NCBI GenBank assembly: GCA_003646405.1
Contig: QNFR01000012.1
Span: 1 to 38,591, forward strand
Reading direction: 5' to 3'
Length of the DNA: 38,591 nucleotides
DNA from: Gammaproteobacteria bacterium
Lineage (GTDB): Bacteria; Pseudomonadota; Gammaproteobacteria; Pseudomonadales; Halieaceae
Positions 13,030 through 15,462 of this stretch are shown here, piece after piece. How positions within the stretch are numbered: position 1 is the stretch's first letter; each line of letters starts with the position of its first letter. The notes under the pieces are model-generated. The model saw only the letters and a list, made by a program, of their open reading frames with translations. It did no database searches and was not told where the DNA came from. Made by a program: the position numbers and the translations under genes.

Positions 13030-14076
<1,047 letters not shown>

Positions 14077-14133
14077 CGGTGGAGCGCGCCGCTGCCAAAG
14101 AGGTAGATTAACCGGGAAAACTGAGGATCTGAC

Positions 14134-14970
14134 ATCAAGCCGTTATTCGTCAAAGAATCCTCCCTGGGCTTACGCGTGTTGTTGGCGGCGCTGGCAGTAG
14201 TGATCCTGATCATGGCAGACCTGCGTTTTAACCGCATGGAAACTATCCGGTCCCTGCTCGATACAATCGCGACTCCTGTCTATTGGCTGGCTGATCTGCC
14301 CACGCGCCTTGGCGATTGGAGCGAGGTCCACCTCCAGTCCAGGTCCCAACTGCTGGAGGACAACGAACGCCTGCTCCAGGAAAATCTGGTATTACAAGGT
14401 CGCTCTCTGCAGATGTCATCACTGCAGGCGGAAAATGTACGCTTGCGCGCTCTGTTGAATTCCGCCGCCCTGTTGCGCGATGATGTTCTGGTCGCTGAGC
14501 TTATAGGGATCTCTCCGGATCCTGTACGTCACCAACTGGTGCTCAATAAGGGTCGCAGCGATGGTGTTTTTGTCGGCCAGCCACTGATTGATGCAGCGGG
14601 TCTAATGGGGCAAGTTGTGGAAGTCAGCGCCGAGAACTCGCGCGCGTTGCTGATCACTGATGTCACTCACTCTATCCCGGTGCAGGTCAATCGGAACGGC
14701 GTGCGCGCCATCGCCGAGGGTACCGGCGCACTGGGAACGCTGGAAATACACCACGTATCAGCCACCACTGATATTCAGCGGGGCGACCTACTGGTGAGTT
14801 CTGGACTGGGCGGGCGCTTTCCTGTGGGATATCCGGTAGCGGTTGTCAGTGACATCGAGCGGGATCCCGGGCAGGCATTTGCCCGCATCCTGGCTATCCC
14901 CAGCGCGGCACTGGATCGCAGTCGTCACGTGCTGCTGGTGTTTACCGCCGACTCAGGCGAGGAAGGTTGA
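14134..14970 (+). CDS. mreC: Rod shape-determining protein MreC, apparent ATC start
   Basis: MreC is a bitopic inner-membrane protein that scaffolds the elongasome in the periplasm. Residues of the conserved N-terminus KPLFVKESSLGLRVLLAAL are encoded directly after an ATC at 14134. An in-frame TGA lies 12 bases upstream (14122-14124), and no ATG, GTG or TTG lies between. GAGGA (14123-14127) is spaced 6 bases before the ATC, ideal for initiation. From ATC the protein is 278 residues: TM helix, a coiled coil (SRSQLLEDNERLLQENLVLQ), then the beta domains with VLNKGRSDGVFVGQP and SSGLGGRFPVGYPVAVV. The next conventional start (GTG 14176) would cut off the cytoplasmic segment and start of the TM helix. 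Confidence 0.93.
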   Translation: MKPLFVKESSLGLRVLLAALAVVILIMADLRFNRMETIRSLLDTIATPVYWLADLPTRLGDWSEVHLQSRSQLLEDNERLLQENLVLQGRSLQMSSLQAENVRLRALLNSAALLRDDVLVAELIGISPDPVRHQLVLNKGRSDGVFVGQPLIDAAGLMGQVVEVSAENSRALLITDVTHSIPVQVNRNGVRAIAEGTGALGTLEIHHVSATTDIQRGDLLVSSGLGGRFPVGYPVAVVSDIERDPGQAFARILAIPSAALDRSRHVLLVFTADSGEEG

Positions 14971-14973
14971 TCC

Positions 14974-15462
14974 TTGGTAGGCGAGGAATCCCATGGCTAT
15001 TGGGTCATACTGCTAACTTTTGTCGCGGCCTATGTGCTGGCGGTGCTGCCGCTGCCCCAGTGGCTGTTGTGGGGCCGTCCCGAGTGGCTCGCACTGATGC
15101 TCATTTACTGGACCATCGCCTTACCGCATAAGGTAGGTATTGTGACCGGCCTGGTACTGGGTGTGGGGTTGGATGTACTGGAGGGGGCCGTGCTTGGACA
15201 GAATGCCTTCGCGCTTGTGGTGGTCGCCCTGCTGTCGCTGATCCTGTACCAGCGCTTGCGGGTATATGGCCTGTGGCAGCAGACGGGGGTGGTATTTGTC
15301 CTGATAGGAATCAATCAGTTGATTTGCCAGTGGGTGCAGAATCTGGAGGGGCTTGGTGCTCGTTCGTTGTTCTTTTTGCTGCCCGCTGTTTCCAGCGCAC
15401 TGTTGTGGCCGGTGGTGTTACACACCCTGCGCGGTTTGCGCCGCTATTATCGGGTGAGCTGA
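14974..15462 (+). CDS. mreD: Rod shape-determining protein MreD
   Basis: MreD is a small polytopic inner-membrane partner of MreC. The 162-residue protein has about five hydrophobic segments (WVILLTFVAAYVLAVLPLP, WLALMLIYWTIALP, GIVTGLVLGVGLDVLEG with the conserved GxxxDxxxG-like motif, AFALVVVALLSLILYQ, and the C-terminal pair). The TTG start at 14974 follows a GGAAGG Shine-Dalgarno by seven bases, three bases after the mreC stop. Confidence 0.92.
   Translation: MVGEESHGYWVILLTFVAAYVLAVLPLPQWLLWGRPEWLALMLIYWTIALPHKVGIVTGLVLGVGLDVLEGAVLGQNAFALVVVALLSLILYQRLRVYGLWQQTGVVFVLIGINQLICQWVQNLEGLGARSLFFLLPAVSSALLWPVVLHTLRGLRRYYRVS

Follow-up and report, generated by a model that had tools for sequence, protein, structure and literature searches.

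The mreC gene in the window, by which we mean the whole 38,591-nucleotide stretch of Halieaceae DNA analysed here, most probably begins at an ATC codon (14134–14136, + strand), a reading to which we give a probability of about 0.9. Comparative genomics gives this start site strong support, and what the initial annotation had recorded as the oddity of a single genome is, judging from the alignments, a clade-wide start-codon class. Isoleucine-type start codons (ATC, ATT or ATA, hereafter AUH) of mreC very likely form an old, selected class in the Gammaproteobacteria.

The mreC locus and its start context

Read from the ATC, mreC (14134–14970, + strand) encodes 278 amino acids followed by a stop codon. 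Its identity is given by the barrel core domain (Pfam PF04085, E = 2.2e-39) and by NCBIfam TIGR00219 (E = 7.6e-63, above the 92.75-bit cut-off), a match in which residue 5 of the protein corresponds to model position 3. The gene order is the usual mreB-mreC-mreD, with mreB (13039–14076, + strand, 345 amino acids, ATG start; PF06723, E = 3.3e-143) as the 5′ operon neighbour and mreD (14974–15462, + strand; PF04093, E = 5.4e-21) as the 3′ neighbour. The start of mreD is a TTG, 4 nt past the mreC stop.

At the start of mreC the window reads AAACTGAGGATCTGAC ATC AAGCCGTTATTCGTC, with the ATC in frame and directly before KPLFVKESSLGLR. An in-frame TGA (14122–14124, + strand), which begins 12 nt upstream, closes the mreC frame on the 5′ side and is followed by GGA TCT GAC, the ATC itself and then AAG CCG TTA TTC (KPLF). 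A Shine–Dalgarno-like GAGGA (14123–14127, + strand) ends 6 nt before the ATC, and no ATG, GTG, TTG or CTG lies between the TGA and the ATC in the window. The initial annotation had proposed the ATC as the mreC start from this arrangement, and its placing of the TGA and the GAGGA proved correct. Folding of 14077–14180 was not above that of shuffled sequence (z = 0.03), and no RNA structure is claimed at the mreC start. The first conventional start 3′ of the ATC is a GTG (14176–14178, + strand) at codon 15, within the transmembrane segment; an ORF caller using standard starts picks this GTG and returns an mreC product of 264 amino acids.

Conservation of the start codon

Genes for MreC were gathered at family, order and class level, and alignment located the start column in 313 of the 350 loci, the N-terminus being too divergent for placement in the other 37. 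Duplicates were removed before counting, and related sequences are not independent. Within the Halieaceae, AUH occupied the column in all 108 distinct mreC loci (ATC 84, ATT 16, ATA 8). Placement relied on similarity to IKPLF-type queries, hence the counts outside this family may be biased: AUH was present in 63 of 77 loci from other Pseudomonadales (ATC 30, ATT 26, ATA 4, and three more one codon upstream) and in 73 of 101 from other Gammaproteobacteria (ATC 30, ATT 26, ATA 15, and two more one codon upstream). The remaining Pseudomonadales loci had ATG (n = 6, with a further three one codon upstream), GTG (n = 2), TTG (n = 1) or other codons (n = 2), and the remaining Gammaproteobacteria had ATG (n = 12), GTG (n = 2) or TTG (n = 1), the rest showing ATG or GTG one to two codons upstream or being unclear. 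Most exceptions to AUH are thus ATG, GTG or TTG at or beside the same place, and in 21 and 9 loci outside the Halieaceae one of these codons lay at the column or one codon before it, with AUH absent or nearly so. From these tallies the column is therefore either AUH or a canonical start. The mreC genes of E. coli and Aeromonas carry ATG there, and the E. coli MreC structure (PDB 7eft) starts MKPIFSRGPS, its Met1 falling on the start column and aligning with the ATC of the window. In other classes of the phylum a clean MreC frame was recovered for only some loci, and an IKPLF-like N-terminus was absent from these.

In five loci (L164, L192, L196, L307 and L328) AUH is found one codon ahead of the usual column, the position shifting and the codon class staying the same. 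One genome of the family holds a second mreC (L091, G036:C7:1950-2765) on a 5.5 kb contig; this copy is 45% identical, is possibly a contaminant and was excluded from the counts.

The initial annotation had also allowed that the base might be a sequencing error for ATG, and the window does come from a fragmented assembly of 279 contigs. However, the comparison with orthologous mreC 5′ regions that it had suggested as a check found AUH at the column throughout the Halieaceae, where the named relatives of the window genome are Haliea, Halioglobus, Kineobactrum and Pseudohalioglobus. The single genus mate of the window has ATC too, and AUH stands at the same place in the independent genomes of Pseudohalioglobus, Kineobactrum, Marinobacter and P. 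aeruginosa (ATC in the last), which include the named isolates Kineobactrum sediminis and Pseudohalioglobus sediminis. These independent genomes refute a sequencing or assembly error, to which we assign a negligible chance.

Evidence that AUH is the first codon

Substitutions were counted in 60 close Halieaceae pairs, over the 39 nt upstream of AUH and over codons 2–15. Upstream, they were spread over the three codon positions (154/187/165) without periodicity in any phase, whereas codons 2–15 changed mainly at the third position (48/14/164). Codons with a single change gave 42 synonymous and 131 non-synonymous substitutions upstream, compared with 161 synonymous and 29 non-synonymous in codons 2–15. 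Periodicity and synonymous excess appear only from codon 2 on, and the boundary of coding constraint in the Halieaceae therefore lies at AUH. A Shine–Dalgarno match of at least 4 nt was detected within 18 nt of AUH in 87 of 108 Halieaceae loci, mostly at a spacing of 5–8 nt; the same match was found in 27 of 108 for a control window, and the first downstream canonical codon was preceded by one in 17 of 106.

These data bear on the alternative in which translation begins at GTG 14176 and the ATC lies by chance in non-coding sequence. Starting at GTG is conventional, and in the P. aeruginosa homologue an automatic annotation took such a codon, but a start at this position leaves unexplained the amino acid constraint on codons 2–15. 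The first downstream canonical codon is also scattered over codons 4 to 48 across the Halieaceae and, as counted above, rarely has a Shine–Dalgarno sequence before it. Starting at GTG 14176 would remove the conserved cytoplasmic segment, as the initial annotation had argued: 14 conserved residues would go, comprising the cytoplasmic segment with its positive charge as well as some of the membrane segment, and the hydrophobic segment would be shortened (best 19-residue hydropathy 2.04, versus 2.52 from the ATC). We rejected the downstream GTG on the constraint on codons 2–15 and the missing Shine–Dalgarno sequence, and regard it as very unlikely.

A start further upstream, reached in frame or by a frameshift and leaving the isoleucine codon internal, is also highly improbable. 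Long open frames of up to a few hundred nt precede AUH in some loci outside the Halieaceae, and an upstream in-frame canonical codon occurs in seven of 108 Halieaceae loci. Against this, the window has its in-frame stop directly upstream, an in-frame stop lies no more than five codons from AUH in 60 of 108 Halieaceae loci, and the column turns to ATG, GTG or TTG in other lineages. Among AUH loci, the stretch from stop to AUH lacked ATG, GTG and TTG in 101 of the 108 from Halieaceae, 51 of the 60 from other Pseudomonadales and 64 of the 71 from other Gammaproteobacteria. In the window the stop hence excludes an upstream in-frame start, and at the other loci such starts are rare. For the two other frames, a start followed by an open frame as far as AUH was present in only 41 and 31 of 118 loci, and a frameshift was rejected for want of a conserved upstream open frame and of upstream codon periodicity.

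AUH as the first codon of mreC was further compared with its operon neighbour and with infC. In 147 related loci the first canonical start of mreB-like ORFs was ATG in 132, TTG in seven and GTG in five, with none in three; mreB being mostly ATG, AUH is therefore not typical of the operon in general. The infC genes of Halieaceae and other Pseudomonadales (L351–L376) begin with AUH, often as ATT/ATC AGT ATT AAR or ATT AAR. A PF05198 search did not find infC in the window’s own assembly, and this control comes from relatives, including one of the same genus (L368). The sequence features of AUH genes of the infC/pcnB type are all found in mreC, namely a homologous AUH with no canonical start able to replace it, the onset of constraint at AUH (in Halieaceae), a suitably placed Shine–Dalgarno sequence and conservation.

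Evolution of the start codon and Shine–Dalgarno strength

For parsimony mapping of the start codon class, a tree was computed from 290 MreC proteins with the first residues left out. AUH was placed at the root, with approximately 21 changes from AUH to a canonical start and four reversals. Within the Halieaceae the third base of AUH switched between C, T and A approximately 17 times, a change to G never occurring. ATG would give the same protein if the initiator tRNA reads the codon, hence the missing change to G suggests that selection acts on initiation rather than on amino acid identity, although occupancy by AUH cannot by itself prove selection for weak initiation.

Predicted Shine–Dalgarno pairing was stronger at AUH loci (medians −6.8 and −7.2 kcal/mol) than at canonical-start mreC loci (−3.8 kcal/mol; raw p = 1.2e-8). 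With independent phylogenetic pairs this compensation was not significant in an underpowered comparison (3.3 versus 0.2 of 10 pairs, median p = 0.25). The stronger pairing is suggestive, as if overall initiation strength were held, and a strong Shine–Dalgarno sequence before AUH may partly compensate for the weak codon. At individual canonical-start mreC loci (e.g. L348, L349 and L208) pairing tends to be weak or absent, unlike at AUH loci, an observation that is only suggestive under control for phylogeny.

AUH could be the true start and still be a neutral relic, a strong Shine–Dalgarno sequence making the weak codon tolerable with no regulatory role for IF3; we consider this possible but doubtful. 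The stronger pairing at AUH loci is in keeping with such a relic, as are the lineages that switched to canonical starts, which imply that AUH is dispensable. However, a relic does not account for third-base changes that avoid G, ATG encoding the same initiator Met, nor for AUH having persisted in most of the families sampled from the class.

Annotation of P. aeruginosa MreC

The annotation was checked in one annotated record and one paper. In P. aeruginosa CP123788.1 (L345) the mreC column reads TAG GAG CGG ATC ATC AAA CCG CTA TTC, with the ATC at 219, and mreC is annotated from a GTG at 267, 48 nt or 16 codons downstream. In a structural paper on P. aeruginosa MreC, the Pro-Phe pair of region 1 carries the numbers Pro114/Phe115, and the first 14 residues are taken to hold the cytoplasmic residues together with the membrane segment (PMC8137920). 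This proline is residue 114 counted from the GTG and 130 counted from the ATC, and the published residue numbers therefore follow the late start. The best 19-residue hydropathy is 1.46 from the annotated GTG, versus 2.34 from the ATC. Going by these sequences, the annotated and structurally studied P. aeruginosa MreC seems to be without its first 16 amino acids.

Gene callers limited to ATG, GTG and TTG deprive MreC of its conserved cytoplasmic tail and of a portion of its membrane helix. Studies of the contact between the cytoplasmic end of MreC and MreB, or those using ‘full-length’ constructs, may hence be working with an incomplete protein.

Comparison with known non-canonical starts

The textbook gene with an AUH start is infC, which encodes translation initiation factor IF3. 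It resembles mreC in its AUU/AUC/AUA start, strong Shine–Dalgarno sequence, frequent ATT or ATC followed by AAR, conservation over long distances and AUH in the Halieaceae. IF3 represses infC (PMC5472188), and the two genes differ in that infC is autoregulated by its own product, whereas mreC encodes a cell-shape membrane protein for which any link to IF3 would be one-way. The AUU genes named for E. coli are infC and pcnB (PMC4245954). In the account of Binns and Masters (2002) given in PMC13009471, the AUU start of E. coli pcnB limits a chromosomal gene that does not encode a translation factor, as would be the case for mreC; pcnB is reported for E. coli, whereas AUH in mreC spans the class and the mreC of E. 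coli starts with ATG.

Conserved non-canonical starts with an extended Shine–Dalgarno sequence and approximately 10% of AUG output are also known in S. aureus ccpN (AUA) and cvfC1 (AUU) (PMC13009471), although these were found by ribosome profiling in Staphylococci and are other genes in another phylum. Streptomyces sigR likewise has a non-canonical start that is repressed by IF3, sets the ratio to a partner encoded nearby and is misannotated in genomes (PMC5472188), but its codon is GTC rather than AUH and it belongs to a sigma/anti-sigma pair. On sequence criteria mreC joins infC, pcnB, ccpN, cvfC1 and sigR as an unusually widespread member of this kind. No report of an mreC with a non-canonical start was found in the searchable open literature, a scope outside which most subscription journals lie.

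Possible role of the AUH start

IF3 represses starts other than ATG, GTG and TTG (PMC5472188), S. aureus reporters with AUU or AUA starts reached approximately 10% of the AUG output (PMC13009471), and in E. coli MreC activates PBP2 and is counteracted by MreD, the balance of the two being important (PMC7793260). From these observations we propose that AUH would cap MreC synthesis and make it sensitive to IF3. A strong GAGGA-type Shine–Dalgarno sequence would position the 30S subunit at AUH, where the initiator fMet-tRNA would pair imperfectly and MreC would still begin with Met (M-KPLFVKESS...). IF3 would then destabilise the AUH initiation complex, and the output of MreC would thereby be capped and would depend on the activity of IF3, in the manner of infC and pcnB, the strong Shine–Dalgarno sequence keeping the capped synthesis sufficient. 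The same message carries mreB with an ATG start, and the AUH codon would serve the balance of MreC against MreB, MreD and PBP2.

A weak AUH start acting as a brake on MreC is plausible, and MreC may thereby be kept low relative to MreB, as the initial annotation had suggested; a role coupled to IF3 is offered tentatively. The wider possibility, which we rate as less than even, is that AUH is ancestral and maintained across most Gammaproteobacteria, coupling the supply of MreC, an activator of the elongasome, to the translation machinery via IF3; this would connect the status of the ribosome directly to cell-wall elongation.

AUH starts in bacteria have so far been counted in single genes. A cell-shape gene carrying AUH across most sampled families of a class would rank among the most widespread cases after infC, and the AUH start of mreC permits a clean test of the reasons for which a start codon with a cost in efficiency persists for so long.
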